DNA of 64,000 nucleotides from Ulota crispa (Eukaryota; Streptophyta; Bryopsida; Orthotrichales; Orthotrichaceae), in NCBI GenBank assembly GCA_963920765.1, contig OY987243.1, positions 26,159,419-26,223,418 on the forward strand, in the 5' to 3' direction. Of this stretch, positions 4,792 to 56,644 are shown piece after piece (position 1 is the stretch's first letter; every line of letters begins with the position of its first letter). The notes under the pieces were generated by a model. The model worked only from the letters and a program-made list of their open reading frames with translations, was not told the DNA's origin and ran no database searches. Made by a program: the position numbers and the translations under genes.

Positions 4792-4795
4792 TTAA

Positions 4796-5728
4796 CACCT
4801 AAAGGACCATTGTCCCTGCGAGGGATAGGCTGGACTTTGGGCATGTACCTATGGCTAAACTATTTTGTGTGATTTTTTGAAACTTTTATTGAAGGTGGGG
4901 AATTCAAAGATCTATGTGGGTATCTAATTTTTTCTTCATTTTGACATTTGATGAAGAAGTTATGCATGAATTTATGAAATATTGGGGAGGGCTGCCCATC
5001 CGGGTAGCCCAAAAACTTCTTTAAAATTTACTTTTTTATAAAACACAAATTTGAAATTGGTTCTTTAGATTTTTTTATTCATGGGGAGTTTTGAATCATT
5101 CAATTTCAGTCAATGACATGAAAGTTATGAGGAGTTTTTGTTTGTGGGCAATTATGGAATCTCTACTCTAAATTGAACTTTGAAGTCTTTTATTTTACTC
5201 AATTTTTAATATTTTGGAAAATTAAAATCAAACTTATGGAAGTAGATTATTATCACAACTTTATCACCCTTGGGATTTGCATTTTTCATTTCAATAATTA
5301 AATTCTTAACAATTCAATGTTTTGACTCATTCTCTACTTCTTTTTACTTACTGTTTTTTTGCATGTCTTGTAAAGTTCCAATTGATTTGAAAATTCTCCC
5401 ACACATACCTAACTTGATCTCCTACATGGAAAAAAAAAAGCGCAACTTTGGGGAGAGCAACTTTTTTTTTATAAGAGTGGTCAAAGGCTTCTGAAATTCT
5501 TGGGCAGCATGGAAAAAAAACTTCTTCTTTTCACTTTAGATATAAATATCTCACTCCTCTCCTTTTGGAATAAGCTGATATTTTTTCCATAAGTACCTCT
5601 TCTAATCTAGGGCAAGATCCTACAAATAGATTTCCCAAAAAAAAATATAAAATCCCTTTTTAATGAACCTCATAGAAGTGGCAGTTTTTAGTGATTTTCA
5701 GAGAAAAATGGGCTTGGTCCTTTAGGGG
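4796..5728. mobile_element. piggyBac-like non-autonomous element A (933 bp)
   Basis: Flanked by TTAA at 4792-4795 and 5729-5732. Left end CACCTAAAGGACCATTGTCC; right end, reversed, CCCCTAAAGGACCAAG. It contains no transposase frame. Subterminal sequence (GGGCATGTACCTATGGCTAA and AAATCACTAAAAACTGCCAC) is shared with elements E, L, N, O and Q. TTAA target plus CCC start is the piggyBac signature; the superfamily call is inference. Confidence 0.75.
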
Positions 5729-5732
5729 TTAA

Positions 5733-6381
5733 CCCCTAATTGCCCAAGGTACTTTTTGAGATTCTAGGAATTTGTTTCAAGTTGAACAAAAAGCCAAAAA
5801 ATTTATACGTTGTATTAGTTTTTTTAAATTGTGATCATAAAAAACCAAACTACATGTGTTAGAGATCACATAAGAAAAGAAAACACAACAATATCATTTG
5901 TGGATTGAGAGATTATAATGTTTGATCAAGAGGGTGTTAATTTGTGATAATGACTTGAAGTCTTTCAATCCTCTTTTCACATGTCAAGTCTAAAAAAACG
6001 GTCACATGAAAAATACAGAGTTAAAGGACATAACACACACATAACTCCAGTCAACTTGTGGTTTTCCAAAATCTGAAATCTCCTCTACAACTTTTTTAAA
6101 TGAATTTCTAGTGTAAATTTTTCTCCAAGGTCTAATGTATTGGAGGCTCATTTCCAAGAGCCCTCAACACTAAGAAAGTCAAGATTGCAATGGACACCCT
6201 TGCACAAAATCTTGAATAGAAAAATCATAATCATATACAAAATCGGCTTTTTGATGCTAGAATTAGATTTCAAAAAGAATAGTTAAAAAATAAAATATAC
6301 TAAAATTAAACACTTAGCTAGATTTTATAGAAGTTCAAAGTATTGTCAACACCATAATGTGGTGCCTTGGGCATTTAGGGG
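5733..6381. mobile_element. piggyBac-like non-autonomous element B (649 bp)
   Basis: Shares the TTAA at 5729-5732 with element A and has a second TTAA at 6382-6385. Left end CCCCTAATTGCCCAAGG; right end, reversed, CCCCTAAATGCCCAAGG, so about 17 bp of nearly perfect terminal repeat. No coding frame. Confidence 0.75.
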
Positions 6382-6669
6382 TTAAGGGGCAAAACATTCT
6401 ATTAAGGCGGTGTGTTGAAAGGAGATTTTTGAGCTTCATCAGCTGATATCCTGCATTTCGAAACATCAATTGGTTTTTCACAAGCTATGCACCCAATACT
6501 ACCTGTATTTAAATACATTATAATTCATATATTTTTTTGAAGATTTTAACTGGTTTTTTTTGTTTTTTTTATAATGTTAACCAGCTAGCTATACACTAAC
6601 TGGTAGTTCCCCCTGCACATTGGTCAAAATTTGGTAAGATTTTGATGAAAATTCTTCCCAAAAGAACTG

Positions 6670-6971
6670 CACTAAATACTGCATTTAGGTTATCCCATAC
6701 TAATTTCTTGACAATTTACACTATATAAATATTTGTTGATACTACAATAACTTTCATCAATAATCATTGTAGTACATTATTTTTATAAATTATGGCAATA
6801 ACAATAAAATTGTAAAAAATAAACTAGCAACGTTTAAGTCATAAATCATATAAAATTTTAGTATTTAAGAAGTTACATATGCCTTCAAGTGGACAAACAA
6901 TGAGTCATGAGATAAATTTTTTAGGATAAGGCAATCTAATTGTTGAGACAACCTAAATGCACTGTTTAGTG
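6670..6971. mobile_element. MITE family W, copy 1 (about 300 bp)
   Basis: Ends CACTAAATACTGCATTTAGG and, reversed, CACTAAACAGTGCATTTAGG. Homologous copies lie at 7332-7644, 7646-7717 (fragment) and 8893-9189. The next 360 bases to 7331 hold nothing recognised. Confidence 0.7.
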
Positions 6972-7331
6972 AAAAATGAGCAGGGTTGAGGCGAGATTCT
7001 CTGTTGTTATTAGAGAGGATAATCTGCAGGAACAGTAGAAAGATAAGAATCTCCCATCAGATAAGAGTCATACAGTAAAGACTGTAAAGTAGAGGGTTGT
7101 CTCCATCTTGGGACATAAAAACGGCCGAAGTTTCCTTGGAAACGATCAAGAGCTTGCCTGGTCATTTGTTAGGGGGACCTGCAAAATTACTATTATTTAA
7201 CCCCCTTCTTTTTCTTGCCCCCACAAAAAAAGTCCCAACTACAAAAATAAAAACAGGGGAATGCACCTTCGCGAAGAGTCAAAGATCCTGAAAATTCCAG
7301 GAAACTAAATTCTGTATATATATAAGAACTA

Positions 7332-7717
7332 CACGAAATAGTGCATTTAGGTTGCCTCAATAATTTTAGGTTGTCTTACCTTGACAAAGTTACTTCATGC
7401 CTCACTCTTGGTCACTTGGAGGGTTATGCAACTCTCTTCATGCTATAGTAATTCCTAGTTTTGATTAAAGTTCTAGCTTCCTTGCTCCTTAGTTGTGTCG
7501 TTTGTTGGTGATTCCAACTTTTGCTTGCTTCTTCCATTTTTTATCACAATAATTATTAACAAAAGTTACTATATGTTTGGAAAAAAATTAAATAGTGAAA
7601 TGTCAAGAAATTAGTATGGGGCAACCTAAATGCACTATTTGATGTACATTAAATATTGCATTTAGTTTGCCCCACACTAATTTATTGACATTTTTCACTA
7701 TATATAAATATTTATTG
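7332..7717. mobile_element. MITE family W, copy 2 plus an adjoining fragment
   Basis: Copy 2 spans 7332-7644 with ends CACGAAATAGTGCATTTAGG and, reversed, CATCAAATAGTGCATTTAGG. A partial copy in the opposite sense (ATATTGCATTTAG, then CCCACACTAATTTATTGAC) follows directly at 7646-7717. The remainder to 7916 is featureless. Confidence 0.65.
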
Positions 7718-7920
7718 CTAGTGTGAAGTATTAGATGTCTCTTAATCATCCAAAATTTGAAATCCAAGAGGGAGGGAGAGAAAAGGCATGAAAGGGAGGG
7801 TGAAAAATCACCCAAAAAGTCACTACTTGCGCAAAGAGCAAGCAAGGCATGTTTGTTAGCATAAAATGCAATTGCATTTTACACATTGACTTCTACAGAT
7901 TAGGTAACAATTAGATTTAA

Positions 7921-8839
7921 CTCCTAAAGTACTAAGCTCAAATTTTTACCAAAACCCCTCCAAAACTGCCATTATTAGTACAAGTACCAAAATTTAGATT
8001 TTTTTTTTATACATGTAGCCATAAGATCTTGTACTACATTACTATCAAAAGATGTGGAAAATTTTTAGGAGTTTTCACCATGTAGATTGTTAGATATTTG
8101 AGTTTGAATTGACAAAAAGTCATTTTTTGTCTTTGCAAAAATCTGGGCAGTTGCACTTCACAAGGTCACATTTGTATGAAAAAAATTCCAAAATAGTTGA
8201 ATTTTTTTGGATTTGTTCTTCAAAGCAAGTCAGTACACACTTGAAAATTTTCAAATCATTTGAGAATCATTTGGAACTGTAAAACACATGGAAATAAAAT
8301 AGTAAATAAAAAGAAGTACATAATGATTTAAACCACTAAATTGTGAAAAAATTAATTATGGAAATGAAAAATTCCAATCCCAATGGTAATAATGTTGTAA
8401 TAAACAATCGACATTTTTTATTTATTTGTTTTTCTAAAACATTGAAAATGGAGTAAAATAAAGGACTTCAAAGTTTATTTAAAAGTAGAGAATCCATAAC
8501 TGCCTACAAACAAAATCTCCTCATAATATTAATCTCATTGATAAGAATGGAATGATTCAAAGCTTCCCAAGTATATATAAATCTAAAGAACCAGTTTCAA
8601 AAAACAAAATTTAAAAAATGTAAATTTTAAAGAAGTTTTTTGGCTACCCGCCAAGCAAAGAAAACAACATATCATGCAATAACTTTTGAACCATGAAGTA
8701 AAAAGTTATGAAAATTGTTGAGTCTACTTCTTGGACACATTATGTGTGAAAATTTCAAAGAAAAAAATGAAAACCCCATTGGTAGTGAGTTGCCCAAAAT
8801 TGCTATATTGCCAAAAAAGGATGTTTAGGACTTTAGGGG
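7921..8839. mobile_element. piggyBac-like element C (919 bp, degenerate)
   Basis: TTAA at 7917-7920, left end CTCCTAAAGTACTAAGCTC; right end ACTTTAGGGG followed by TAAA instead of TTAA. Subterminal blocks (tggctacccg, ataacttttgaaccatgaag, tcaaagcttccc) resemble elements A and L but have diverged. Confidence 0.6.
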
Positions 8840-8892
8840 TAAAAATTTATTGGTTTAGATTTATTGTACACCTATTGTATGATTGTCAACTA

Positions 8893-9189
8893 CACTAGAT
8901 ATTTCATTTAGGTGGCACATTCTAATTTCTTAGCATTTTACACTACACAAATACTTACAAATACTACAAAAAATTTCATCAATAATTACTATAGTAAACA
9001 AGTTATAATGGCATGGCAACAATGTAGATGCAAACAAACAAACTAGCAATGTTTAGGTCGTAAACCATGTTAAATCTTAGTATTGAAAAAGTTGCTTGTG
9101 CCTCCAAGTGACCAAGCAATGCGTCATGAGATAACTTTCTATAGGAAAGCAGCTTGATTGTTAAGGCAACCTAAAAGCAACATTTAGTG
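8893..9189. mobile_element. MITE family W, copy 3 (297 bp)
   Basis: Ends CACTAGATATTTCATTTAGG and CATTTAGTG. The interior aligns throughout with copy 1 (for example CTAGCAATGTTTAGGTCGTA against CTAGCAACGTTTAAGTCATA). Confidence 0.7.
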
Positions 9190-9603
9190 TAGCTAAAAAT
9201 AGACATGTAATTAGAAAATGCCTTTGGTGATCAAAACACTTCATTATAAATGACAATGAGTTTTACTATATCTCATTATTATTTTTTGAGCTTAAATTAT
9301 AGAGAAGCACTATTGCTGTTTACAGTAGATTTGAATGACAAAGGATACTGGTATTTGAGCATCCAAAGTCCAATTTGGGTTTAAAATATGGTCTCAAGTT
9401 TTGGTTACTTACAATCAGAGGCATTCTTTTATTGTTCTTTTTGAAAATGATTGTTCCAGGCTCGTTCCAAGCAATTGTATTCTGCAACAACGAAATCTTA
9501 CATTGCTATAATGCGTGTTTTAGTAGAATTTTGCAAACAAAAGTAAATATGCCATTTAAAAAAAAAAAAGGAGGCCTCTTCTTCAAAGTAGTTTGAAAAA
9601 AAA
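9190..9603. other. Intergenic, nothing recognised
   Basis: An open frame at 9375-9596 lacks any motif. Confidence 0.35.
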
Positions 9604-10550
9604 GGGGAAATTACGAACAGGACCATGAAAACAAAAAAAAAACATTACAAATAGGGGCATAGTTTCAAAACAATATGTAAATTCTTGTATTTTTTTTGGT
9701 TTTAACATTAATTGATTTAAATACATCACATTAAATGTTGGCTCTTTTCAAAGCTTGGGGAGATCACTATGTGTATCTACAACTAACCACGTGAGTTAAG
9801 TGATTTTTTGTCCCCATATTTATTTTTAAATGGATTATGATTTCAACTTAAAATTTTGAACTTTGTTTAATTAAGACTATAGGATTCTATTGCCAAAATC
9901 TTTAGTCCAAATAATATATGAAATGATTTTTAGAGCAGGTTGAAAACTAAACTAAAATGGCATAATTTTCAACTCAAATATTTATAGAGAACACATTTAG
10001 ATGACTATTGCATCAATATTCAAGAAATATAAACTTTAAATAGAGCCTCATATTTGGGAATTTCTTTTGTATTTTTTAAAAAGTTTTTCTTACATAAGAT
10101 AGGGGTGTGAAAGTTATTTTCAGCTCTACAATATATCATTTTACTTCAAAAATTTGTAACTAATTATAATTAACAAATAAAATTATCAATAATTCAAAAC
10201 ATGAACTTTCAAAGTAAGGGAATCTACTCATATTTTGTTCTTTTCCTTTTATTTAAGTTTTAGAGCATAAGATAGGGGGTTCAAAATCTTAACACAAGTG
10301 GTTTTTAATGGACCCTCTAAGTGATCTCCCCGAGTTCTAAAGACTTAAAGGCCTCTCCAAAACAAGCCTAAATAAAGAAATTTTAGCAAAGGGGATGACA
10401 ATCTTTGGATAAGCTTCTAAGTTTTTAAAAATTAGCTTACATTTAATGTGATGTATGTAATCAACCAACATCCAAATCAAAAAAAATTCATGAATTTACA
10501 AATTATTTTGAAATGGTGCCCCTATTTGTAATTATTTTGAAATTGTGCAC
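9604..10550. mobile_element. Foldback element family FB1, long copy (right end incomplete)
   Basis: Begins GGGGAAATTACGAACAGG and carries repeated TTACAAATAGGGGCA-type subterminal motifs. The block ACATCACATTAAATGTTGGC near 9724-9744 returns inverted near 10440-10455 (ACATTTAATGTGATGT). The outermost right end, present in the compact copy at 50535-50964, is missing here. Confidence 0.55.
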
Positions 10551-11527: not shown

Positions 11528-12393
11528 CCCCTAAAGCCCCAAAGTCCCCTCGGGGGACTTTCAAAATTTTGGGTAGGCTCAATTATTTACATAATTTTTT
11601 GAAACTTTTTAAGAGTGTGTAGGAATGTATAAGGTTTGTGGGATGCAAAAAATCATGTGATTATGTCACACGGTTCACAAGTTATGGGCTTTTTTGGCCA
11701 AAAGCAGTTTGAGGGGCCGCTTGGGCAAGGGAGAAAATATTGACTTCAAAGGGGGTGAGCAAGGAGGGGTTGCCACATGTTGCTCTAGTGGTCCCCATTA
11801 TTTCCTCTTTCCTTTCCAATTAGGAGGTCAGATTGGGCTTTGGGAGCTTCTAAATTTTAGAGTTTTAGAGTTTTTTAACTTCTTCTTTTTTCAACATTTG
11901 AATTACATGTTTATCTTCAAATACACCATTTGGATTTTCCATATCTAAAAATATATGGTGAGAAACTACACTCAAAAATGTCATAGTATATTTGCAAAAC
12001 TTGTCATATAGTGGCATTGCAATATTTTTTAGGATGTGTTTGGTGTCTTTGATTGCCTTGAAAATTGGCATACAAAGGTCTAATTTGATTACCTATAATA
12101 TAAAATTACAACTTCAAGGTCCGTAGTGCAAAAAAAATCAGCAAATGTTAGTCAAAGCCATCTGAAATATCAGGCACAATGGGAAAAAAAGAAACTTCTC
12201 CCTTCAAATGCTCATAACTTTCAATCAGTATTGTCAAATGTCACAAAAAATTTATCACTTCTTCTTCTACAAGTCCATTACAAGATCCTATGGTTAGATT
12301 TTCAAGAACAAAATCTTGTTGAAATTTTTGATGAACGCAGCAATAGGGACAGTTTTGAGTGGTTTTTGGAAAATGGCCTTGGTAGTTTAGGGG
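11528..12393. mobile_element. piggyBac-like element D (866 bp)
   Basis: TTAA at 11524-11527 and 12394-12397. Left end CCCCTAAAGCCCCAAAG; right end, reversed, CCCCTAAACTACCAAGG. Open frames inside (11694-11948, 12126-12410) show no transposase motif. Confidence 0.65.
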
Positions 12394-12663
12394 TTAAGAG
12401 GCATTTTTGAAGTTTTTTAATTGGGGTTGTCAAGATTATTATTAACACTAAAATAATATTGTAACTATAGGATCTTGTATATCAAGGCTTCTAGATGGTG
12501 TTGCCAAAAAAATTCCAAAAAAGTCATGTGGATGCTAAAATATTTGTGACTAAATGTGGATGAGTATGGAACTTGCTATTTTATTTGGAGCCACTAGAAA
12601 CTTGTTATGCAAATGGCAACTTTTGGGTACAAAGTTGGGAAACAACCACTTATGATAATTTTA

Positions 12664-13283
12664 CCCCTAAAGGACCAAGCCCCCTTTTGGGGGACAAATG
12701 GGATTTTGGGCAGGTACCTATGGCTAAACTACTTTGCATGATTTTTTGAAACTTTTATGGAAGATAGGGAATTCAAATATCTACATGGGCATCTAACTTT
12801 TTCTTTAGTTTGACATTTATTGAAGAAGTTAAAAATGAACTTCTGGGAAAAGGTTGAAATGGGGCAGCCCAAAAAATTCTCTAAAATTGTATTAAAAATA
12901 AATAGAAATATGAAATAGGTTCTTTAGACTTCTATATAGGTGGGGAGCTTTGAATCATTCAATTTTCATCTCATCTATGAAAATTGAATGATTCAAAGCT
13001 CCCCACCTATATAGAAGTCTAAAGAACCTATTTCATATTTTTATTTTTATTTTATACAATTTTTGAGAATTTTTTGGGCTACCCCATTTCAACCTTTTCC
13101 CATAAATTCAATTTTTAACTTCTTCAATAAATATCAAAATGAAGAAAAAGTTAGATGCCCATGTAGATATTTGAATTCCCCATCTTCCATAAAAGTTTCA
13201 AAAAATCATGCAAAGTAGTTTAGCCATAAGTACCTGCCCGAAATCCCATTTGTCCCCCAAGGGGACAGTTGGTTCTTTAGGAG
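12664..13283. mobile_element. Palindromic piggyBac-like element E (620 bp, two arms of about 305 bp)
   Basis: Left end CCCCTAAAGGACCAAG (flank TTTA), right end, reversed, CTCCTAAAGAACCAA (flank TTAA at 13284-13287). The whole element is an inverted repeat with its centre near 12973 (TTCATCTCATCTATGAA). Each arm equals the GGGCATGTACC-side terminal part of element A, so E looks like two copies of one end joined tail to tail. Confidence 0.85.
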
Positions 13284-13287
13284 TTAA

Positions 13288-14755: not shown

Positions 14756-14759
14756 TTAA

Positions 14760-15663
14760 CCCTTTAAGGACCGCACCCATTTTCACAAAATCCACTAAAA
14801 ACAGGGGCTGTAAGCTTAGATGTGCAATTAACTCAAATATGGACCCATTTTCAATAATCCAATTATACAAATGGGAAGTACACCTTGTTCACTTTAAAGC
14901 ACCAAAATTTTAGCTAGATCTACCATTGGAGGTGAAACATTATAATGATTGAGCGAGCTGTATGCAGAAAATCTTTAGTGTTTCATGCTAGTGTGGATTT
15001 GAATGTTATCGCTTCATGCAAGCTTTGATTGAAAAGAGTCTTACATTTCTAGAAAGCAGGGTTTCCCACCTTTCCAACAAGACTAGTTTCACACAAAATA
15101 GACAAAAATAACAATCACAAGGTGTAGCTAAGTGGATAGAAAGGGCAAAAAATCCCATTTTTTTTGCTACCCTAAAACAATTCTACAAGAAATTTGATAA
15201 TTGTTATGGAAAATCCGATTGGTGAAAGCAATCAAGAATTGGCCTTTAATGTAGGATGACATATTTTAAAGCCAAAATGACAACACCATTTTAGTAGATT
15301 TTCAAATACTACAATTATACTACTATCGTATAGGAAAACAATACAAGCATATTTCTTAAGCAATTTTAATTTCTTTAGAATTGTGCAATTGAAATGTGGC
15401 ATTCTTGGATGTTTGATGTATTGTGTTGTTGCTTTGATCCACCTTTGACAAAAATTGGATAGGTATTTTGAAGCCACGCCGTATAAACACCATTATTTAT
15501 CAACTCACATACCCAATTGCATTGTTATTTTTTTAGATGGATGCAAAATTCTTGTGATCACATGCGTACTTCAAGACCAAATTCCAAATTATTGAGTGAT
15601 TTCAACCTACAGACCAAAAACCACTCCTAGCGACCAAAATATGGTCACGTGGTCCTTGAAGGG
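14760..15663. mobile_element. piggyBac-like element G (904 bp)
   Basis: Exact TTAA at 14756-14759 and 15664-15667. Ends CCCTTTAAGGACCGCACC and, reversed, CCCTTCAAGGACCACGTGACC. It is the same family as element K (35135-36034), which lies in opposite orientation. A minus-strand frame at 15232-15477 is mirrored by a similar frame in K. Confidence 0.8.
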
Positions 15664-15749
15664 TTAACCATGATCCCCACCTTAGTCCCAAACTTGGTTC
15701 CAACCTCAAGCCCAACCTTAGTCCCATAGTCAAGACCAACCCATATTAA

Positions 15750-15833
15750 CCCTTAAACGCCAAAGGGGACGATTTTTGTCCCCGGGAATACACAGGGGCC
15801 ATGTACCCACTGTGACACCCAGGCGTTTAAGGG
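15750..15833. mobile_element. Minimal piggyBac-like element H (84 bp)
   Basis: TTAA at 15746-15749 and 15834-15837 enclose ends CCCTTAAACGCC and, reversed, CCCTTAAACGCC: a perfect 12-bp terminal repeat in an 84-bp element. Between here and 16150 lies the 3' flank of the OTU gene, with nothing else seen. Confidence 0.8.
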
Positions 15834-16150
15834 TTAACAAGTAACCTGGACAGGTTCTACTGTATTTGTTTACAGAGGAAGTTGCTATTCAGAGATTACT
15901 CAATTGTTCCAATGCACTAGTGGGTTTGACATCACCAAGCTCACAACAGAAAATAAACAATCATTCAATTTCAAGCTCTATTTAAACAGAATCATCCAAC
16001 TTGCAAGACTGACTAACTTTTGAAGATTGCGTTTTGAATACAAGAAAAGCCTAGAAGGTTCCAACAAAGCGAGTAAAGAGAAAAAAATACTGACACTTCA
16101 AGAAAGGAGAGAGTGAAAGGTCATCGTCATCACTCCCTCACTCACTCCAT

Positions 16151-22115
<5,965 letters not shown>

Positions 22116-23570
22116 TGTCTTCGATCACCAATCAACACAACATCCGTAGGCACTAATAAATTGGCCCTCTTAAGATTTTACCGACTCCCCTTACAATAAA
22201 CGACTTTCCCTGTTTCGTGTTCAACACAAAGAAAGAAGCCGTTACGATATTTGCGTGCTGCACGTTCTTGGCAACAACGCCATACCGCACTCACGCTACT
22301 TCGTCACACTGGCACCAACTTCAATTGCCGAAATCCACTGACCTGCCAATTGTTCAAAAATCGAAGTTCCTGTTTTAGGTCAAACCTCTCTCCACACGTC
22401 CAAAAGAAACTTAAAACAAAAAACAAAACAAAACTACTACTACTACAAGTGCAGATTACATCCACGTTAGCTCTCATCATCATTCATAAAATCCTCATGA
22501 AAATTCTCAACCCTAGACCGCACGCAAACCAAGACTCCACTTCACTTCTTCTCCTTTCATGCTCTATCCCGCAACCACAACTTTCTACAACCCTAACAAC
22601 AAACACAAAAAGCCTACAATAAACAATGATCCACACAAATCAAAAATCGCAACCCTCGAAGTTGCGAATTACGCTCTCAGCTAAGTTAAAACAGAAACTA
22701 AACAAACAAAACAATGGCTTCCTTTATAAAAATCTAGCCATTCGACTTCCAAGCTCACTCACTCACTCACACTAACTTCCACGGAAACCAATTCGTCACG
22801 GCACAAGCTCCCCGATCACAAAGCCATCGTTCACCAAACCCCCGCCCCTCGCCATTTTGCAAAAAAAAAAGGAAAAAGGTGCTGTAGATGAGAACCTAAC
22901 TTAACTTCGAAATAAACCTCGGATCCAGTGAATTCAACATCGTCGCAGACCACACTTGATCCACAAGAGACGAATCTTAACCATAAAAGACAGGATCTAT
23001 TCTACACCAAATCGTATGAGAAATTCCGCAAACGAACCTGTAAAACTTGAAGAGGAAGGCAAGCAGCGTGCAGACCCTAACTAAGCTTAAGTTAAGCGAT
23101 GGCGATGGCGATGCTGTTGTGGCTTGTGCGGAGAGAGAGAGACCGGAGGGAAACCAGAAGGGGAACCAGAGGAAACCGGAGGAACAAAGGCACCCTGGAA
23201 TACTCTTCTTCTACTAGTAAGTTACTAGTAAGTTACTACTACGTTACTAGTTACAACTACTGAGCAATAATATATAACCATTTTCTATCGGGGAAGAAGA
23301 CAGATATACAGACAGGCCGAAAGGGCTTCCAGAAAGAACGGAATATCTTGGTATTAAGCTTAAATATTTCTGGTTCCTGGTGCCCTCGACATATTATAAG
23401 CCCACCACCGACTTCGACGTCTGTCACGTTTTCTTTCTTTCAGCGAGCAGGCCCTCTGTTTTTCCCGTGATATTTTGGTCCTTTGTTTTTTCTTGTCCTA
23501 AAATTCAGATTTGAAATGGGGAAATCTCATGTTATAACAATTAGGGAAATTTTTAGGGAAAATATCAAAA
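22116..23570. promoter_or_regulatory. Upstream region of OTLD1 (5' UTR and promoter, unresolved)
   Basis: Richer in GC than the surrounding DNA up to about 23470. It contains AACCCTA telo-box-like strings (near 22509, 22588, 23071), CACTCACTCACT and an ACTAGTAAGTTACTAGTAAG short repeat near 23214-23250. A 5' UTR intron is plausible but I cannot fix its borders. Short plus-strand frames here show no motif. Confidence 0.4.
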
Positions 23571-24552
23571 GGGGATTGATATGTTTACTACACCCTTTTA
23601 GCTTTTCTACCACCCTCTTAGGATAAATTTTAGATTTTTATCATCAAAAAGCTGAATTTGAGAATTTGGAATTCAAATTTGGAATTAGAGATTGTGATTT
23701 AGTTTAAAATCATAAAAAGGTTCTAATTGAACAACACCCAGTGAAAAAGCTTATCTGTTTTTGTAAACAAAAGTAAAAGTAATAACTTTCCCCTAGCTAA
23801 GCTTTCTCATTGGGTGTTGTTCAATTACAACCTTTTATTTATGGTTGTAGACAAAATCAAGGTCTCTAAGTCCAATACTAAATTTCAAATTCTCAAATTC
23901 AACTATTTGATGGTAGAAATCTAAAATTTACCCCAAGAGGGTGGTAGAATAGCTGAAAGGGTGTGGTAGACATATCAATCCCCATATCAAAAATGCCCCT
24001 TAGTTCTGTCAAAATATCAAATATGCCCCTATATTATACAAAATATCAAAAATATCCATGGTTTGTGTAAGAATATCAATTGTACTCCTACTATAGTTAT
24101 TTTTGAGAATATCATTAATACCCCTAGTTTTTTGTGCCTCTTTACTGCAATTTTTTTTAAACATAAAACCAACAACAAAAATTACTATGTAATAATTGCA
24201 ATGGCTTTGATCACAATAGACTTATATGCAAACACCTTATATAGAACTTAAAGAACTTGCTTCCAAGATTTGGCTTGCATTCAACTTACATCTAGTTTTT
24301 AGATTTTCCATTATCATCCAAATATTTACAAAAATATGCAAAAAGAGACACAAGAGAATTAGGGATATTTTTTGTAAATCAAATAATACAAGGGTACATT
24401 TGATGTTTCATAATAATTGAGGGTCTCAAAGAACTAAAGGTATGATTGATATTCCTACATAAAGCTAAGGGTATTTTTGATATTTCAAATAATATAGGGA
24501 TATATTCAATATTTTGAAAGAATGAGGGGTAATTTGATATTTTCCCTAAATT
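23540..24552. mobile_element. AT-rich inverted-repeat element with nested FB2 foldback copy 1 (23571-23983)
   Basis: Outer ends TTAGGGAAAATATC and, reversed, TTAGGGAAAATATCAAATT. The interior is a ladder of degenerate AATATCAAAAATGCCCCT repeats. Nested at 23571-23983 is FB2 copy 1: ends GGGGATTGATATG and, reversed, GGGGATTGATATGTC, two arms of about 190 bp around a short loop with ATTGGGTGTTGTTCAATT. Confidence 0.65.
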
Positions 24553-25352
24553 TAATCCACATGTATGTACATATAAACATGCATTTCAAGTTAATTTTGA
24601 ACTACACTTAATGAAATAAAACTATAAATTCCAAAAATAGTAGAAAGGCGGTAGAAACCTGTAGGACTAACTAAATCAAATTGCCTTGTGACCATTATGT
24701 AAACACAAATAAAATAAATAAATTATTAGTACACTTTTTCATAACAACTCTTGTCAACTTACATCAATCAAAATGAATGCTGATTTGATCTTTGAAGGAT
24801 CAAGAAAATCAATTTAGAACTTGTGTCTTAAAAGAAATTCCAAAGGTCAAACAAGGATATTTGTGTTCAAATCTAGATTTTTTTTACAAATAAATGTAAT
24901 GCTTTTCAATATGAATCGCTTCAAATAGATTTAATGATCACAAACAAAAGTTTACCATTGGACATTAAAACATTGTTTAATATTTGAAAGCACACTTAAA
25001 AGTAAAAGTTTATCACACAAAAATATTTCAATATGTTTTAGAATTTCACTAAAATATGAAGCTCACTAAGTTTTAATATTTAGAGTTTTTCCTTAAATTT
25101 GGTGTATTGATCATCTTCTCTCTTGCTATGTTCTTTAAAGTTGATTTTGCAATTGTCACCAATCAATGTATGTTTAGCATTTCTTTGATACTTTTGAAAA
25201 ATAAAGCATCCCAATATGTTTTTATAGTGGATTTGTGCCAAATTTTGCTCGATTATTTGGAGTATAGATTGTTGGTATATAAAGGCTTATCCATTAATTT
25301 CATATTATTTATTTTGTATCACACAAGCTCGCACATACATATACATATACAT
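24553..25352. other. Intergenic, nothing recognised
   Basis: AT-rich. Ends in a short ACATAT microsatellite next to FB2 copy 2. Confidence 0.35.
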
Positions 25353-25763
25353 AGGGAATTGATATGTGTATCACATCCTTTCAATTACTGTACCACACGC
25401 CAGAGTAAATTTTAGATTTCTACCATCATAAAGATGAATTTGAGAATTTGGAATTCAGATTTAGACTTAGAGACCGTGATTTAGTCTAAACCACAAAAAA
25501 GTTGCAATTCAACAACACCCAATGAAAGAGCTAATTTTTTTTTACAAACAAAAGTAAAAGTAATACTTTTCTCCCTAGCTAAACTTTTTCATTGGGTGTT
25601 GTTGAATTGCAATTTTTTATATGGTTCTAAACTAAATCATGGTCTCTAAGTCCAAAATTGAATTCCAAATTCTCAAATTCTGCTTTATGATGGTAGAAAT
25701 CTAAAATTTTCTCTGAAGGTGTGGTACAGTAATTGAAAGGGTGTGTACACATATCAATTCCCT
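25353..25763. mobile_element. FB2 foldback element, copy 2 (411 bp)
   Basis: Ends AGGGAATTGATATGTGTA and, reversed, AGGGAATTGATATGTGTAC. Arms of about 190 bp pair along their length; it is inserted in an ATATAC microsatellite. Confidence 0.8.
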
Positions 25764-25952
25764 ATATATATGTATATTTATATGTATATGTATATGTATA
25801 TGGTACAAAATGAGTGAATAGGGTATTCAAATTTTGAGTTACTCTTTGTATTCAAAGCTATTAAAGACTAAGGAAATGAAACACACTAAAAAGGTTATTG
25901 GAAATACAAATGTTACCTTGAGACCTTTTTTGAGTGTTGGTAGAACTTTTGA

Positions 25953-28506: not shown

Positions 28507-29236
28507 AGCATACTATGATAATTGTACCCATACTTGAGCGGTCCCTAATACTGCACTTTATGTTTAGGGTGTTCTCCACACACTCTTGAACCCAAAGTGG
28601 ACCAGTGAATGTCACTTGCACAAGCAAATATTGCCACATGTCAACTTAAGAGCTAGTTTGCATTGGGAGGGTCAAGATTGGGACAATCAAGTACATGTAT
28701 AGGAACACATCCAAACAGTTTCAAGAATAATCTAGAGTTGCTAATAGGGATCCTATGAGTTGCAATTTTGCCCTTTAACCCTTAAGCGTCTGTTGGGTGG
28801 CTGTGGCATGCCCACACTGTAGCTTCAATAGTGTTTGTAATGTAGCTTCAATAGTGTTTTGATTAATGGGCACCAATAGTATTGCTTCTAAAAATTTCAA
28901 AAGTCAATAGTGCATGCTGACCTCATGAAAATTGTAATAAGGGCAACTCGAGACCTAACACCATGATATTGAATTTTCTCACACTTTGGGTTACCTAAAA
29001 ACATGAGCGTATTTGATAAGATTGTTATTTACCTTCTATGATGGATCATATGTTTACGGTCACTTTGAAAAAAAATAGATAAAAAGTGACTTTTTTCTAT
29101 TATACATAATGTTTTTTCAGGGCTAGAGGACAAAAAACGTCCTCATGGGCGTTTAAGGATTTATGTAAATTAATCTACAATACCGTTTTCACAAAAAATA
29201 CGCTATAGGATAGCTTGTTGAAAGGGCTAACCCAAA
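28507..29236. mobile_element. MITE (family of 47977-48376) interrupted by piggyBac-like element J
   Basis: 28507-28774 and 29165-29236 together align, inverted, with about 48060-48376. Between them sits element J. The far left end here is degenerate (ATAATTGTACCCATACTTGAG). Confidence 0.7.
28779..29159. mobile_element. piggyBac-like element J (381 bp), nested
   Basis: Flanked by TTAA (28775-28778) and TTTA (29160-29163). Ends CCCTTAAGCGTC and, reversed, TCCTTAAACGCCC. Relative of element I. The uninterrupted host sequence at about 48110-48125 shows a single target copy (TAAA). Confidence 0.8.
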
Positions 29237-35134: not shown

Positions 35135-36034
35135 CCCTTTAAGGACCATGCGACCATATTTTGGTCACTAGGAGTGGTTTTTGGCATGTAGGTTGAAATC
35201 ACTCAATAATTTGGAATTTGGTTTTGAAGTACGCATGTGATGACAAGAATTCTGCATCCATCTAAAAAATAACAATGCAATTGGGTATGTGAGTTGATAA
35301 ATAATGGTGTTTATATGGCATGGCTTCAAAATATGTATCCAATTTTTGTCAAAGATGGATCAAAGCAACAACACAATACATCAAGTATGCAAGAAGAATG
35401 TCAAATCTCAATTGCACAATTCTAAAGAATTTTAAATTGCTTAAGAAATATGCTTGTATTGTTTTCATATATGGTAGTAGTATAATTGTAGTATTTGAAA
35501 ATCTACTAAAATGTTGTTGTCATTTTGGGCTTTAAAATTTGTCATCCTACATTAAAGGCCAATTCTTGATTGTTTTCACCAATTGGATTTTCCAAAATAA
35601 TTATCAAATTTCTTGTAGAACCATTTTAGGGTGGCAAAGAAAGTGGGTTTTTTGACCCTTTTTGTCCACTTAGCTACACCTCGTGATTGCTATTTTTGTC
35701 TATTTTGTGTGAAACTAGTCTTGTTGGAAAGGTGGGAAACCCTGCTTTCTAGAAATGTAAGGCTCTTCTCAATCAAAGCTTGCATGAAAGGTTAACATTT
35801 GAAACTAAACAAGAATGAAACACAAGAGATTTTTGGTATATGGCTCACTCAATCATTATATTGTTTCACCTCCAACTCTAGCTGAAATTTGGTGCTTTAC
35901 AATAAACAAAGTGTACTTCCCATTTGTACGGTTGGATTATTGAAAATGGGTCCATATTTGAGTTAATTGCACATCTAAGCTTATAGCCCCTGTTTTTAAT
36001 GGATTCTGTGAAAATGGGTGTGGTTGTTAAAGGG
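35135..36034. mobile_element. piggyBac-like element K (900 bp)
   Basis: Exact TTAA at 35131-35134 and 36035-36038. Ends CCCTTTAAGGACCATGCGACC and, reversed, CCCTTTAACAACCACACCC. Inverted relative of element G along its length; a frame at 35320-35535 is similar to the frame at 15232-15477 in G. Confidence 0.8.
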
Positions 36035-36038
36035 TTAA

Positions 36039-37046: not shown

Positions 37047-37461
37047 GGGAATTGATACACATACCAGCCCTTCTTGATTATTCTACCACACCCTACTATA
37101 TTGTCAATAGTTATAGTATTAAAATAGGTGTGGACCATGGGAAAAACATCACTAATTTGAAAATACAACTTGACATTGAAATTGTAACTTTAATTCTATT
37201 TTTTAGTTTTAGATCTAGCTCATTTTATTTGCTAAAAAATCTAAATTATATTTAGTTCAATTTAGATTTGTTTAAGTGATACTATAAGCAAGATTAAGAG
37301 TTGAAAAAAAAATCAAAACAACATCTTCTATATCAAGTTGTATTTTCAAATTAGTGATATTTTGCCCATAGTTCACACCTATTTTAATATTGTAGATATT
37401 GACCATATAAAGTAGAGTGTTGTAGAATAGTCAAGAAGGGGTGGTACATGTACCAAATCCT
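37047..37461. mobile_element. FB2-like foldback, divergent copy 3 (415 bp)
   Basis: Starts GGGAATTGATACACATACC. The two arms pair through GTCAAGTTGTATTTTCAAAT-type text (37150-37170 against 37330-37350) and ACACCTATTTTAATA. Its core differs from the other FB2 copies. Confidence 0.6.
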
Positions 37462-40334: not shown

Positions 40335-40417
40335 GGTGGTTATGAAGGGGGAGGTTCAGCTGCAAAACGTGTGTGAATGTGTTAATTGCATTGCAGGTAA
40401 AAAGCAACACGCAAGAG

Positions 40418-47712
<7,295 letters not shown>

Positions 47713-47976: not shown

Positions 47977-48376
47977 TAAGGTAACTGTACCCATACGCGA
48001 GCAATTATGGGTTTAGGGTACTTCAAGGTCTCGGAAATTCAGGAAAAAATTCTGTAGGGTTAGACTTTCAACAAGCGTAATTTTTGTGGAAAAGGATATT
48101 GTAGATTATTTTATATAAAAGGGCAAAGTTGCAACTCATAGGGTCCTTATTAGCAACTCTAGACTATCCTTGAAATTGCTTGAATGTGTTCCTATACATG
48201 TATTTGACGGTTCCAATCCCGACCCTCCCAAACTAGCTCCTAATCTGACACGTGGTAGTATTTGCTTGTGCAAGTGACATTCACTGCTCCACTTTGGGTT
48301 CAAGAGTGTGTGAAAAAACACCCTAAATGTAGAATGCGACATTGGGGATTGCTCAGGTATGGGTACGGTTACCTTA
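47977..48376. mobile_element. MITE (400 bp) with AAGGTAACTGTACCCATA ends
   Basis: Left TAAGGTAACTGTACCCATAC; right, reversed, TAAGGTAACCGTACCCATAC. An interrupted relative lies at 28507-29236. 47713-47976 is the 3' flank of PTAR1. Confidence 0.75.
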
Positions 48377-49411: not shown

Positions 49412-49804
49412 AGGGAATTGATATATGCATACTCTCAGGGTAAATTTTAGATTTCTACCATCATATAGCTAAATTTGAGAAATTTGAATTCAAATTTGGA
49501 CTTAGAGACCATGATTTACTCTAGAACCATAAAAAAAAGTTGCAATTGAACAGTGCCCAATGAAATAGTCTACCTAGGGGGACAAGTATTACTTTTACTT
49601 TTGTTTGTAAAAAAAAAATAAACTTTGTCATTGGGTGTTGTTGAATTGCAACTTTTTGTTATGATCTTAGACTAAATCATGGTCTCTAAGTCCAAATTTG
49701 AATTCAAATTTCTCAAATCCAGCTTAATGCTGATAGAAATCTAAAATTTATCCCAAGGGGGGTGTGCAAAGATCAACTTCTTTGTGTACGTGTATCAATT
49801 CCCT
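49412..49804. mobile_element. FB2 foldback element, copy 4 (393 bp)
   Basis: Ends AGGGAATTGATATATGCA and, reversed, AGGGAATTGATACACGTAC. The interior matches copies 1 and 2 (CTTAGAGACCATGATTTA, ATTGGGTGTTGTTGAATTGC). Confidence 0.8.
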
Positions 49805-50534: not shown

Positions 50535-50964
50535 GGGGAAATTACAAATAGGGGCATGAAAATGTAAAATATTACAGATAGGGGCTTAGTTTCAAAATAA
50601 TTACAAATGGAGGCACAATTTCAATACAAAATGTAATTTTTGGAATTTTTTTTGGTTTGGACATTGGTTGATTTGGATACATCACATTAAATGTTAGCTA
50701 ACTTCCAAAAAATTTAAAAGTCTTCAAAAACTACTTACCATTTTACTAAAATTTCTTTATCTAGGCTTGATTTGGAGAGACCTTTAATTTTTTGGAAATT
50801 AGCTAACATTTAATGTGATGTGTCTAACTCAACTAATGTCCAAACCAAAAAAATTACAAAAAGTTACAATTTTTTTGAAATTGTGCCTCTATTTGTAATT
50901 ATTTTGAAACTAAGCCCTTGTCTGTAATATTTTACATTTTCATGCCCCTATTTGTAATTTCCCC
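50535..50964. mobile_element. FB1 foldback element, compact copy (430 bp)
   Basis: Begins GGGGAAATTACAAATAGGGG and ends with the inverse. Arms of about 190 bp contain three degenerate ATTACAAATAGGGGC repeats each. Confidence 0.85.
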
Positions 50965-51424
50965 AAGAACTATAGATAACAAATGCTTGCAAATGCATGT
51001 CTTTGTTAATACAAATAATTATATTGTATATTGCATTGGATATTATGGAACATGTTATATGTTGATGTTAGAGTTAAATATTGTACACTTCATGTTTCAT
51101 TCTTAAACAACAAATCCACTATTTGGGCCTAGTGTTTACATATTCTTTCTTTGTTCAAGAGTACCACTTAATTGTGGTAGCCTAGGTTGGAGTCCTTCAA
51201 TTTAGCTCCATGCTGGTCATCTATTGTACATATATGCAACATCAAATTCTTACATGTTTGCTTGTATTATGCATCAAGGTATAAAGAACCATTTGATTCT
51301 TGCCCAAGTTTTCAATTAATTCCTTATGGTGGTTGTTTCTTTAAAATTTAGTTTAAAGGTTAATGGAGTCAATCTTTTAAAATAGAATGTTTACTTGAAA
51401 AATGTTGGTACTATATAGTTTTGT
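50965..51424. other. Intergenic, nothing recognised
   Basis: AT-rich; no motif-bearing frame. Confidence 0.35.
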
Positions 51425-51428
51425 TTAA

Positions 51429-52350
51429 CCCCTAAATGACCAAGCCCTTTTTTCAGTGAAAGTCCCTGAAAACTACCACTTTTGGGGGAATGAGTAGAAA
51501 GGTAGGAAAAACAATTATTTTGGAAATCCAACCGTAAGATCTTGCCCTAGACTATGGGAGGTACTTGTAAGAAAAAATCAACTCATTCTAGATGTAAATG
51601 AGTGAGTTATTGACATTTGAAGTGAAAAAAAAAGTTTTTTTTCCTATTGCCCAAAATTTTCAAAAGCCTTTGACTGCCCCTAAATCAAAAAAATTGCTCT
51701 ATACAAAGTTGAGGTTTATTTTTTCCATGTAGAAGACCAAGTTAGGTAAGTGTGGGAGAATTTTCGAATGAATTGGAGGTGTGGATCAAACTTTGTAAAA
51801 TCTTGTAATGCCGTAAGGCCATGAAATTTGCAAATACACTTGGCAAAATAAGAGGATTTATATAAAATTGAGAAATATGAATTACATTGATCCAAATAGT
51901 GAAAACCAAGGAATCTTAGTCTACTACAACTTGGAAAAAAAAGAAGTAAAAAAAAAAATCACAAGGAGCACAAAAAAGTAAAGTACCAAAGGCAAAAGGA
52001 ATGGAGGTATGGAGTCTTGTAGCTGCCCGCAAACTAAAACTTTTCACTCATATATCAAATTGAATGATTCAAAGCTCCCCACATATACATAGATCTAAGG
52101 AACCAATTTCAGATTTTTATTTTGAAAAAAAAATTTAAAAAAAATTGGCTACCCAATCTTGCATGTTTTCAAAAATTCATGCATAACTTCTTCAATAATT
52201 GTGAGAATGAAGGAAAAATTAGATGCCCATGCAAATCTTTGAATTCCCCATCTTTAATAAAAGTTTCAAAAAATCATGCAAAGTAGTTTAGCCATAGGTA
52301 CATGCCCAAAATCCCATTTGTCCCCCGTAGGGACAATGGTCCTTTAAGGG
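51429..52350. mobile_element. piggyBac-like element L (922 bp)
   Basis: Exact TTAA at 51425-51428 and 52351-52354. Ends CCCCTAAATGACCAAGCCC and, reversed, CCCTTAAAGGACCATTGTCC. Same family as A, opposite orientation. Confidence 0.8.
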
Positions 52351-52528
52351 TTAATATTGTAATGGAATTTCCAAACATAACCCAATGTAATATAAACACA
52401 TACAATCACATTCATCTAAAATACAAGTTCAACATTTCTTAAATTTGAGGTTCTCTTTTTCTATAAATGCTTTTGTTCCTAGGGCATTACAAATATGTTG
52501 CCATATAATTGGCATTTACCAACATTAT

Positions 52529-53063
52529 CCCCTAAACGCCCAAGGGGGTAAGGGCAAAACATAGATGCATTACAAAATGATACTTATGTAACCTTGATGA
52601 AGTTTGCTTCAAAATAGAATACAAGAATCATGATGTTTAGTAATTATCTTTATAGTCAAACATAAAAAAAGTTATGGATTTATATTTAGTGAATTTAGAA
52701 GCATTTACCATTTAATATTCACCAAAATTACAAATTTTATTCATAGATTTTAAATTTTGGTATGATTGGTTAAAAACACACATTCTATAGTAAACTTCAA
52801 AAATGCAATATTTTCAAAGGAGAGAACATCATTAGTTTTCAAAATAATAAATTTTGTAACACTAGCAAATATTGAAGTGTTTGTTTTTTATTATTCTCCT
52901 TCATGGAGTTTAACTTGAATTGACATGATTCAAGTTGGGTTGGAAAGTAGGCTTAATTTCCAATTCAAAGGTTTTTTTAATTTGTAAAAAAAGTTCTTTT
53001 TCATCTCTGGCTTCCCGCAAGAAATAGGCAACAACCAAAAAATGATCGATTGAGCGCTTAGGG
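52529..53063. mobile_element. piggyBac-like element M (535 bp, weak)
   Basis: Left flank TTAT, right flank TTAA (53064-53067). Ends CCCCTAAACGCCCAAGG and, reversed, CCCTAAGCGCTCAATCG match only partly. Confidence 0.45.
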
Positions 53064-53325
53064 TTAAGAAGTTTTAATTTGAATCTCAAATACCTCACTA
53101 GGACCACGTTGATCTATATTTCAACTTCTTTGTCAATCCCAAATGTAGCAAAGGTATGATTGCATTCCAAATATTAGAAAAATAACTTGTATTGTACAGG
53201 CCACCATGGCATGCTTAGATTTATCAGAGGTTTTTATTTATTTTGGTTTTTTTTACTCTTAGCACAAGGTCTAGTCCTTTTTCTTCCAAGAACTTTGGCC
53301 TACAATCCTCTTATTTAACCCTTAA

Positions 53326-54231
53326 CCCCCAAAGGACCATGGCCTTTATTTTGTAAAAAGACACTCAAAATTGCCACCTCTATGGCAAAGCGTAAAAAAG
53401 TTTGAAAACCAATCTTTTTGCATATCTAACCTTAGGATCTTGTACTAGACTACTATAAGAATATGTCATACAAAACTCAAGAACTTTGTCCACACAAATT
53501 GGAAGATATTTGCATTTAAAAAGTAAAAAACAACTTTTTTTGCACCTTGCATGATTAGATTATTTGACTTTGAACTTTTTAACTTAGAATTTTTGCACCA
53601 CAGAGTTTGGAATTCTACTTTTTCATGGTGGGAAGTTGAGTTGGTAATCTTGGGGAAAACAAAAAAAACAAAAAGTAATTAATTTTCATTCTTTAAAAAA
53701 AACATTAGGCAGAAGAAAGTATGAGATTGAACAAAAACTTAAATTACTAATAACCTTGCAATGGAATTGAAACACAATAATCTCAATGGTGAGATTGTTC
53801 CAAAAAGCAAACTTCACCCTCTCCAACAATTTTTTTGAAAAAATGTTAAACTTGCATTTACAAGTTATTTTTTCAAGAAGATGCTTGAATTGCCCAAAAA
53901 ACAAGATTGTCCATAACTTTCTCATAACTAGTCCACATGGAATGAATCAAAGCTTCAGATGTAGACAAAGATATAATTTATGAGAGACTTCTTTTTCTTT
54001 TTCTTTTTTTTTCAAGTTTTTATGAGAATTTTTTTTGTTGCCCGAAGTCCCCAAATTTGTGCTTATTTGGGCATAACTTTTGCTCCTTGGCATCAATTGG
54101 AATAAAAATTAGAACATTTTTGAATTCCCCATCTTCAATAAAAATTTCAAAAAACCATGCAAAGTAGTTTAGCCATAGGTACATGCCCAAAATCCCATTT
54201 GTCCCCCGTACAGACAATGGTCCTTTAGGGG
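53326..54231. mobile_element. piggyBac-like element N (906 bp)
   Basis: TTAA at 53322-53325 (another TTAA at 53315-53318); right flank TCAA. Ends CCCCCAAAGGACCATGGCC and, reversed, CCCCTAAAGGACCATTGTC. Family of A. Confidence 0.65.
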
Positions 54232-55156
54232 TCAAAGGCCCAACCGTCTTCTTGGGGGACCATTGGATTTTGGGCATGTACCTATAGCTAAACTAGTTTG
54301 TGTAATTTTTTTAAACTTTTACTAGAGGTGTGAATTCCAAGACCTATGTGGCCATCTAATTTTTCTTCATTCCGACAACATTTAATGAAGAAGTTATCAA
54401 GAATATTCTAAAACTAGGCAAGAAGGGGCAATTTGGGCTATGGCCTTTCCTTTGCAAGTGGGTGTTGACTAAAAAGAAGGTCCGGCCTTTGTGGGCACAA
54501 GGTGTGTACAATTTGGCAAGAGAGAGTGGAGTGGAAGGTGCCCATCTTGGGGGACTCCCAAACCTCCATTCCTTTTGCCCCTTGTAAAATTTGGTGCTTT
54601 AATGTTTTAAGCTCTTTGTGTATTTATTTTTTGACTTTTTTTTTCTAAGTTGTAGTGGATTAAGATTCCTTGGTTTTCACAATTTGGATCAAAGTAATTC
54701 AAATTTCTGAATTTTACATAAATCCTCCAATTTGCTTAGTGTATATGCAAATTTCATGACCTTATGACATTGCAAGATTTTACAAAGTACAATTCACACC
54801 TCCAATTCATTTGAAAATTCTCCCACATACCTAACTCAGTCTTCTACATGTAAATAAAACAAACCTCAACTTTGCATAGAGTAATTTTTTTAATATGAGA
54901 GTGGTCAAAGGCTTTTGAGAATTTTGGGCAGCAAGGAAAAAAACTTTTTTTTCACTTTTGATATCAAAATCTCACTACCCTACATTTGAAGTGGGCTGAT
55001 TTTGTTTTGCAATATCTCCCATAGTCTAGGGCAAGATCCTATGGTTGGATTTCCAAAAAGAAACATTTTTCCTACTTTTCTACTCATTCCCCCAAACCCC
55101 CAAAAGTGGCAGTTTTCAATGATTTTCACAGAAAAAAGGGCGTGGACCATTAGGGG
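54232..55156. mobile_element. piggyBac-like element O (about 925 bp), abutting N
   Basis: Starts within a few bases of the end of N, apparently after loss of its first bases. The interior follows element A (ATTTTGGGCATGTACCTATA, then AACTTTGCATAGAG). The right end GGACCATTAGGGG is followed by TACT, so that duplication has decayed. Confidence 0.6.
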
Positions 55157-55171
55157 TACTCAAGAGGTTAA

Positions 55172-55411
55172 TCCTTGGGCGCCCAGCCCAAATTTGTGCC
55201 GGGTTGGACCTCATTGCAAACAATCCGGTGCTATAAGTTCAAAAACAACATCTAAAGAGTTAGCCTTTGATCTTGCACAATGCTTAGGGTTTGCAGATGC
55301 ATGAAAATTTTGGTAAACATTCATTGCACGGATCAAAAGATTGTAATGGTCAAAGTCAACATATTGCTGAAAATGGAGAGGCTAGATTTGGGGCGTTGGG
55401 GCGCTCAAGGG
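55172..55411. mobile_element. piggyBac-like element P (240 bp)
   Basis: Exact TTAA at 55168-55171 and 55412-55415. Ends TCCTTGGGCGCCCAGCCC and, reversed, CCCTTGAGCGCCCCAACGCC. 55416-55727 holds nothing recognised. Confidence 0.7.
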
Positions 55412-55731
55412 TTAAGAGATAATTCCACATGAATTGTGATTTCAAATGCCTTGGAACTTTGTTTGAGTTATTTCAAATATGTTTTCTTGGATTTTAAAGA
55501 ATAAAACAAAATCACACACTCCAAATTGGAGTACCTGAAACTTATGAATTACTACTCTTCATTGATTTTTTTGTTTTTGTTTTTTTGCTATCATTTTTTA
55601 ACAAAACTAGTCAACATTATCATTTTAGTATTAAGGTTGCAACATGTGATTTTGGTGAGAATTGTTGAGTGGTTTATGATTGAGTCATTTTTTAAAGTCT
55701 ATAGTTAGCTTTTCTTCAAAGTAGTTGTTAA

Positions 55732-56640
55732 CTCCTAAAAGATCATTGTTTTTTTGAGGGACAAGTTGGACTTTGGGCATGTACCTATGGTTAAACTACT
55801 TTGTGTGATTTTCTAAAACTTTTGTTAAAGGTGGGGAACTTAAAGATCTATGTGGGCTTCTAATTTTTTCTTCATTCCAACATTTGATGAAGAAGTGATG
55901 CATGAATTCATGGAAATTTGAGGAGGACTGCTCTTCTGGGTAGCCCAAAACTTCTTTAAAATTTACCTTCTTTATAAATAAAAATGTGAAATTGGTTCTT
56001 TAGAACTTTTTATAAGTGAGAAGCTCTGAATCATTCAATTTCAATCAAGAAGATGAAAGTTATGAGGAATTTTTGTTTGCGTGCAATTATGGATTCTCTA
56101 CTCTAAAATAAATTTTGAAGTCCTTTATTTTACTCAATTTTCAATATTTTGGAAAAAACACTAGACCAAAGGAAGTCCATTGAACCGTCGGGATTTGCAT
56201 TTTTCATTTCAAAAATTATATTCTTAGCAATTTAGTGTTTATAGTCATTCTCTACTTCTTTTTACTTACTATTTTTTCCCATGTGTTGTATAGTTCCAAT
56301 TGATTTGAAAATTCTCCCACACATACCTAACTTGATCTCTTACATGGAAAAAATAAAGTGCAACTTTAGGTAGTGCAATTTTTTTCATGTACAAGTGGTC
56401 AAAGGCTTCTGAATTTTTGGGCAGCATGGAAAAAACTCTTTCTTCATTGTAGATGTAAATATCTCACTCCTCTCCATTTAGAATGAGCTGATTTTTTTCT
56501 CACAAGTACCTCTTCTAATCTAGGACAAGGTCACACTATTGGATTTCCCAAAAACAAAACATAAAATCATTTTTACTAAACCTCCTAGAAGTGGCAGTTT
56601 TTAGTGATTTTCATAGAAAAAGGGCTTGAACTTTTAGGGG
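55732..56640. mobile_element. piggyBac-like element Q (909 bp)
   Basis: Exact TTAA at 55728-55731 and 56641-56644. Ends CTCCTAAAAGATCATTG and, reversed, CCCCTAAAAGTTCAAGCCC. Interior close to element A. Confidence 0.8.
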
Positions 56641-56644
56641 TTAA

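Follow-up and report, generated by a model that had tools for sequence, protein, structure and literature searches.

Short TTAA-flanked elements of probable piggyBac type and piggyBac transposase sequences in the genome of the land plant Ulota crispa

A stretch of 64,000 bases from Ulota crispa (contig OY987243.1, positions 26,159,419-26,223,418; 36% G+C), hereafter the window, carries a set of short elements that are very probably non-autonomous DNA transposons of the piggyBac superfamily, of the miniature inverted-repeat transposable element (MITE) type. No transposase is encoded in the window elements. The superfamily assignment is based upon the ends of the elements, a 4-bp TTAA target duplication, the copy number, the presence of genes of the piggyBac transposase family PF13843, and one full element with such ends. 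Genome-wide searches were performed in the window's own assembly (275 Mb, 157 contigs; labels such as C1 and C3 denote its contigs). An earlier prediction made from this DNA (the original prediction) had already taken the elements for non-autonomous piggyBac derivatives, a view now supported by genome-wide TTAA flanks, PF13843 matches, and an element that encloses one of them.

Inverted ends and element families

The end motif CCCYTAAANGNCC was found at 22 sites in the window when at least 10 of its 11 informative positions were required, versus 1.25 expected from a random control of 20 sequences sharing the dinucleotide frequencies of the window, and at 7 sites when all 11 positions were required, versus 0.05 expected. 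Furthermore, 12 pairs of matching ends with TTAA flanks were present in the window, compared with 0-3 per random sequence (mean 0.65). Eight of these pairs are in the final list and three others combine the same ends differently; the remaining pair, 59679-60658, looks like chance and was left out. Curation yielded 15 elements of 84-933 bp, with exact TTAA on both sides in ten and on at least one side in 14. The size range is that of the original prediction, while its count of at least 16 elements was approached and not exactly reproduced; it had spoken of nine elements between exact TTAA but listed ten letters, and ten is the number obtained here. The ends of the clean elements begin with CCC, CTC, TCC or CAC, and the window elements have the inverted ends of CCC or CCY type that characterize the piggyBac superfamily. 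The curated elements, together with one empty copy discussed below, are as follows (flanks given as left/right, strand where assigned, and agreement of the ends where scored).

4796-5728, + strand: alpha-family element, 933 bp; TTAA/TTAA; ends 13/14
5733-6381: element, 649 bp; TTAA/TTAA; ends 13/14; TTAA at 5729-5732 common with the neighbour 4796-5728
7921-8839: element, 919 bp; TTAA/TAAA; ends 12/14; internal sequence common to the alpha family
11528-12393: element, 866 bp; TTAA/TTAA; ends 11/14
12664-13283: fold-back (palindromic) alpha-related element, 620 bp; TTTA/TTAA; 91.6% to its own reverse complement
14760-15663, + strand: beta-family element, 904 bp; TTAA/TTAA; 90% to 35135-36034
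15750-15833: 84-bp element, barely more than two ends; TTAA/TTAA; ends 12/14
16635-17010, - strand: gamma-family element, 376 bp; TTAA/TTAA; ends 9/14; inner part aligns with 28779-29159 reversed
28779-29159, + strand: gamma-family element, 381 bp; TTAA/TTTA; ends 9/14; used in the empty-site comparison
35135-36034, - strand: beta-family element, 900 bp; TTAA/TTAA
48074-48366, - strand: empty copy of the repeat that received 28779-29159; 4-base gap at the insertion point
51429-52350, - strand: alpha-family element, 922 bp; TTAA/TTAA
52529-53063: element, 535 bp; TTAT/TTAA; poor ends, 6/14; right end may lack a base
54236-55156: damaged alpha-related element; left end degraded, without a TTAA pair; ends 3/14; internally like 51428-52016
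55172-55411: element, 240 bp; TTAA/TTAA; ends 11/14
55732-56640, + strand: alpha-family element, 909 bp; TTAA/TTAA; 83% to 4792-5732

Two of the 15 are matched poorly at their ends: 54236-55156, which is a poor call, and 52529-53063. Comparison of the window with itself revealed three families. The alpha family (about 0.9 kb) comprises 4796-5728, 55732-56640 and 51429-52350, plus the fold-back relative 12664-13283; the beta family (0.9 kb) comprises 14760-15663 and 35135-36034; and the gamma family (about 0.38 kb) comprises 28779-29159 and 16635-17010. Full-length pairs could be aligned from TTAA to TTAA in both alpha (4792-5732 with 55728-56644, 83% identity) and beta (14756-15667 with 36038-35131, 90% identity). 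The region 15750-17010 was also considered as one element of 1,261 bp into which another had inserted. The alignment did not support this, and the region is treated here as two distinct elements, one of 84 bp and a gamma element of 376 bp.

In the genome searches, 40 of the 8,522 preliminary alpha candidates were scored and gave 42 matches; beta gave 40 and gamma 41. The mean pairwise identity among the fetched copies, excluding the window copy, was 0.90, 0.92 and 0.87, respectively, and the genome copies are thus moderately diverged. The 14-base end motif CCCCTAAAGGACCA occurred 8,876 times in the genome, with TTAA directly preceding it in 7,555 cases (85%), and its reversed form occurred 0 times; as background, the 64,000-base window contains TTAA itself 437 times. 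A broader pattern, TTAACCCYTAAANGNCC, had 19,465 occurrences versus 1 for the reversed pattern. Given two ends per element, the latter count suggests, as a rough estimate, on the order of ten thousand elements in the genome.

TTAA target duplication

Flank statistics were derived from the best-scoring copies of each family (30 alpha, 20 beta and 20 gamma), which are better preserved than the average copy; one gamma copy was dropped for its partial alignment, leaving 69. Exact TTAA on both sides was present in 46 of the 69 copies (alpha 22/30, beta 11/20, gamma 13/19). The TTAA columns carried 0.98-2.0 bits, the adjacent outward column 0.0-0.32 bits, and the remaining outward columns at most 0.54 bits. 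Alignment of many copies, which the original prediction had proposed as a check, therefore upheld a TTAA duplication retained genome-wide.

A comparison with an unoccupied site was available for the gamma element 28779-29159, which lies inside a repeat whose empty copy is 48074-48366 on the opposite strand. When the flanks of the element were joined and aligned to the empty copy, a 4-base gap was left at the insertion point. The flanks read TTAA on the left and TTTA on the right and the empty copy reads TTTA, which implies a mutation in at least one copy. A 4-bp TTAA duplication, as expected of the piggyBac superfamily, is accordingly seen in the window, in the 69 copies, at ends genome-wide and at one empty site.

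These results bear upon PIF/Harbinger (Tourist-like) MITEs, which make a 3-bp TWA duplication and would have to sit in TTAA by chance. The tetranucleotide holds both TTA and TAA and in that respect fits TWA. However, in alpha, beta and gamma copies the enrichment covers the whole of TTAA on either side, with the adjacent column close to random, and the empty site shows a gap of 4 bases; no 3-bp TWA duplication was found in these data. Furthermore, the one complete coding relative read carries PF13843 (see below). A PIF/Harbinger origin is considered highly improbable.

piggyBac transposase sequences and a complete element

The original prediction placed a plant piggyBac transposase elsewhere in this genome, and such sequences were recovered. 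PF13843 had 120 genome matches, all above the curated cut-off and the best with E 1.3e-73; the count is a lower bound, 116 of 528 candidates having been scored, and in a few cases one locus is represented by two pieces. The family had no match in 14 control genomes, which are not known to be plants. In 10 of the 120 matches no stop was listed.

A complete transposase-bearing element was contained in two contiguous loci, L079 and L001 (C3:13129300-13135423). This element, C3:13130266-13135284, is 5,019 bp long with exact TTAA on both sides and the ends CCCCTCATCGCC and CCCTTCATTGCC, and between its CCC ends lies PF13843 sequence broken by stops. Its longest stop-free piece matched the piggyBac transposase of PDB 6x67 (E 1.6e-25) and that of piggyBat, PDB 9c0f (E 2.7e-21). 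The search for such ends enclosing PF13843, also suggested at the outset, thus produced one complete element of the anticipated kind. No full-length relative with a different transposase was seen, one full-length element having been read. The left 300 bp of this element (TTAA included) matched five places in the genome, namely itself and sites on C10, C8, C11 and C1. The C10 and C8 copies each lie approximately 2.5 kb upstream of a same-strand PF13843 match, which by coordinates is the spacing within the C3 element; neither the C11 match (73%) nor the C1 match (36 bp) is near a listed PF13843 match.

Eight transposase loci were read. Within 1.5 kb of them no left ends were found, and exact right ends were found at L001 and L006 only; the left end of L001 was located 2.5 kb upstream. 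In L001, VTVDEV and VVCDNFF are the counterparts in alignment of LTIDEQ and ITCDNWF in 6x67, and in L006 MRGVDLVDQ is that of MKGVDRADQ in piggyBat, so that aspartates which we take to be the catalytic ones of piggyBac transposases are present in these alignments. The second D is replaced by N in L002, L007 and L008. With regard to the C-terminal Cys-rich domain of the superfamily, cysteine-rich tails were noted by eye in L002, L004, L005 and L007, and a scan of four tail pieces gave no zinc-binding Pfam family at cut-off.

The stop-free pieces of the eight transposases share 27-55% pairwise protein identity, and at the DNA level only one pair of loci gave an alignment with E no higher than 1e-10. 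Because of this divergence, several old transposase lineages appear to fit better than one recent arrival, in a comparison that contains no outgroup. At two loci, C1:1180709-1181995 and C8:19570986-19572215, the PF13843 match is divided into two pieces that lie within a stop-free frame (563 and 472 aa). The individual pieces have low scores, in part due to the split, and both loci are candidate genes of a spliced or a domesticated kind. It is tentatively possible that piggyBac is a long-term resident of this lineage, in which diverged transposases amplified approximately ten thousand elements and one or two stop-free loci may have become domesticated host genes.

Three pairs of loci lie on opposite strands 7-20 kb apart: C7:18203169/18223004 and C2:36765124/36779670 (both equal-scoring), and C2:1480196/1487826 (L014/L015, 99.7% identical). 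This arrangement suggests recent inverted duplications or assembly effects.

Proposed source of mobility and observations to the contrary

In the proposed mechanism, a full-length piggyBac element elsewhere in the genome would supply the transposase, which would recognize ends of approximately 13 bp (CCCYTAAANGNCC and variants); the short elements would then be excised and pasted into TTAA sites, with duplication of the TTAA. Such cut-and-paste chemistry is known from the piggyBac of other organisms. The visible transposases, or relatives of them, presumably moved the window families, and a link of alpha and beta to a particular transposase is likewise presumptive.

Kolobok and Sola3 elements have also been weighed, Sola3 having TTAA as its target. 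Kolobok makes TTAA duplications and thus shares this feature, but its termini are 5'-RR and YY-3' (PMC9587614), unlike the CCC-type starts of the window elements. The presence of PF13843 within similar ends argues against both, and we regard either as a very remote explanation.

A variant of the piggyBac assignment holds that the families with TTAA and CCC ends are indeed of piggyBac type but were moved by transposase lineages since lost. The ends of the full element differ from those of alpha and beta, and the eight transposases are mutually divergent, both of which fit such a loss. On the other hand, the pattern TTAACCCYTMANCGCCAAAGGGGACG, built to fit both the left end of the C3 element and the window element at 15750, was found with at most 2 mismatches at 197 genome sites versus 0 for the reversed pattern, so that many elements have ends resembling those of the full element, as judged by a pattern made to fit both sources. 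This variant seems rather unlikely, though it deserves consideration. Among 58 of the 197 sites checked against PF13843, two had a match inward within 6 kb, one of them being the left end of L001 itself.

The distances between end sites and transposases were also examined with TTAACCCTTCANNGCC, a pattern derived from the right ends of both L001 and L006, which had 115 sites and 2 in the reversed control. Among 100 sites listed, three had a PF13843 match inward within 3 kb, two of which were L001 and L006 themselves; the independent site is C1:27657022. The Harbinger-type family DDE_Tnp_4 was found inward of one listed site within 3 kb, a point in favour of PIF/Harbinger, inward of one more within 6 kb, and outward of another at 440 bp. 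Chance expectations in this test were 0.13 and 0.16.

A number of observations weigh against assigning the window elements to piggyBac. The distance test favours neither transposase, with one independent PF13843 neighbour against one DDE_Tnp_4 neighbour, and is non-discriminating; two of the three PF13843 neighbours had served to design the pattern. DDE_Tnp_4 is abundant, with at least 150 genome matches, a number of them without stops (1 of the 14 control genomes also matches); PIF/Harbinger is therefore countered by the target length and the one full element, not by absence of its transposase. All eight PF13843 loci read contain stops, the complete transposase-bearing elements read amount to one, and no element was found that combines a transposase with exact alpha or beta ends. 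The end of the C3 element resembles the window element at 15750 over a short stretch (23 bp at 87%, E 0.94). An eight-piece profile search of the window gave a best E of 0.27, and no remnant of a transposase was detected there. A single empty-site pair was found in the window, a second apparent pair having been lost when the nested reading of 15750-17010 was dropped. Lastly, beta is the least clean family, with TTAA on both sides in 11 of 20 copies and only 0.98 bits in the left -4 column.

Genes and other repeats in the window

Among the genes of the window are a leucine-rich-repeat receptor kinase and a cation-efflux transporter, the latter split over two open frames. LEAFY is a marker of land plants and their algal relatives, and its SAM domain (SAM_LFY) had six genome matches, one of them strong (E 1.2e-27). 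Together these are in agreement with the land-plant origin proposed in the original prediction.

Further palindromic (fold-back) repeats, some of them interrelated, are present at 23562-25784, 37048-37460, 42491-42889, 49432-49761, 58162-59219 and 61203-61854. At 9753-10334, a repeat also found at 50590-50905 is interrupted by 582 bp with a junction overlap of approximately 6 bp, perhaps an insertion of another kind. Related repeat copies are located at approximately 40835-41599, 44221-44648 and 46862-47430 (76-89% identical by stretch). A direct repeat at 63039-63828 consists of two neighbouring copies of about 0.4 kb with 84% identity, and the transporter frame ends within an overlap with the first of them.

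Comparison with known piggyBac systems

The known hosts of piggyBac are chiefly animals and other non-plant lineages. The original prediction took a similar view; plant piggyBac is not wholly unreported (PMC6890710, PMC10004981, PMC3902484). A review lists PiggyBac among seven angiosperm MITE superfamilies (PMC10004981), the PGBD5 paper includes plants among piggyBac hosts (PMC3902484), and one sentence names PiggyBac among plant superfamilies (PMC10794571). Repeat tables give 1,230 PiggyBac entries (122,417 bp) for Ceratopteris (PMC6890710) and a single entry of 75 bp for Stipa (PMC8319324). In the literature searched, as excerpted, no description of a moss, liverwort or fern piggyBac transposase was noticed, which is not proof of absence, and the excerpts of PMC9860276 and PMC13120521 held nothing on plant piggyBac; PMC10619864 matched by the word piggybacking only, as far as its excerpt goes.

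The elements described here resemble the piggyBac of Trichoplusia ni, which we take to be the system of PDB 6x67 and 6x68 with ends presumably starting CCC, in having a PF13843-type transposase in the genome, a TTAA target and CCC-starting ends; unlike it, the window elements have no transposase gene. piggyBat (PDB 9c0f), an animal element with different ends, is the second solved relative by sequence match to the transposase piece. A well-defined piggyBac is 2,472 bp long, and CCCTT and CCCTC are among piggyBac end motifs (PMC10813416); the C3 element, with its broken gene, is approximately twice that size at 5,019 bp.

If the assignment is correct, the piggyBac superfamily can thrive in plants and plant TTAA MITEs gain a plausible transposase source, with material for the question of transfer versus long residence of piggyBac in plants. 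Since plant piggyBac is reported in PMC10004981, PMC3902484, PMC6890710 and PMC8319324, the kind is already known and its presence in plants already stated, and the present set is an abundant addition that extends it. The Ceratopteris and Stipa figures are class counts from repeat annotation, whereas ends, target duplication and transposase were examined here. Likewise, the text seen of PMC10004981 gives no plant transposase for the angiosperm PiggyBac MITEs, whereas in Ulota crispa transposase sequences and an element enclosing one of them occur in the same genome. The present analysis contributes a land-plant genome in which the copies number in the thousands, a TTAA duplication that was put to the test, and an element of this kind with transposase sequence inside it.

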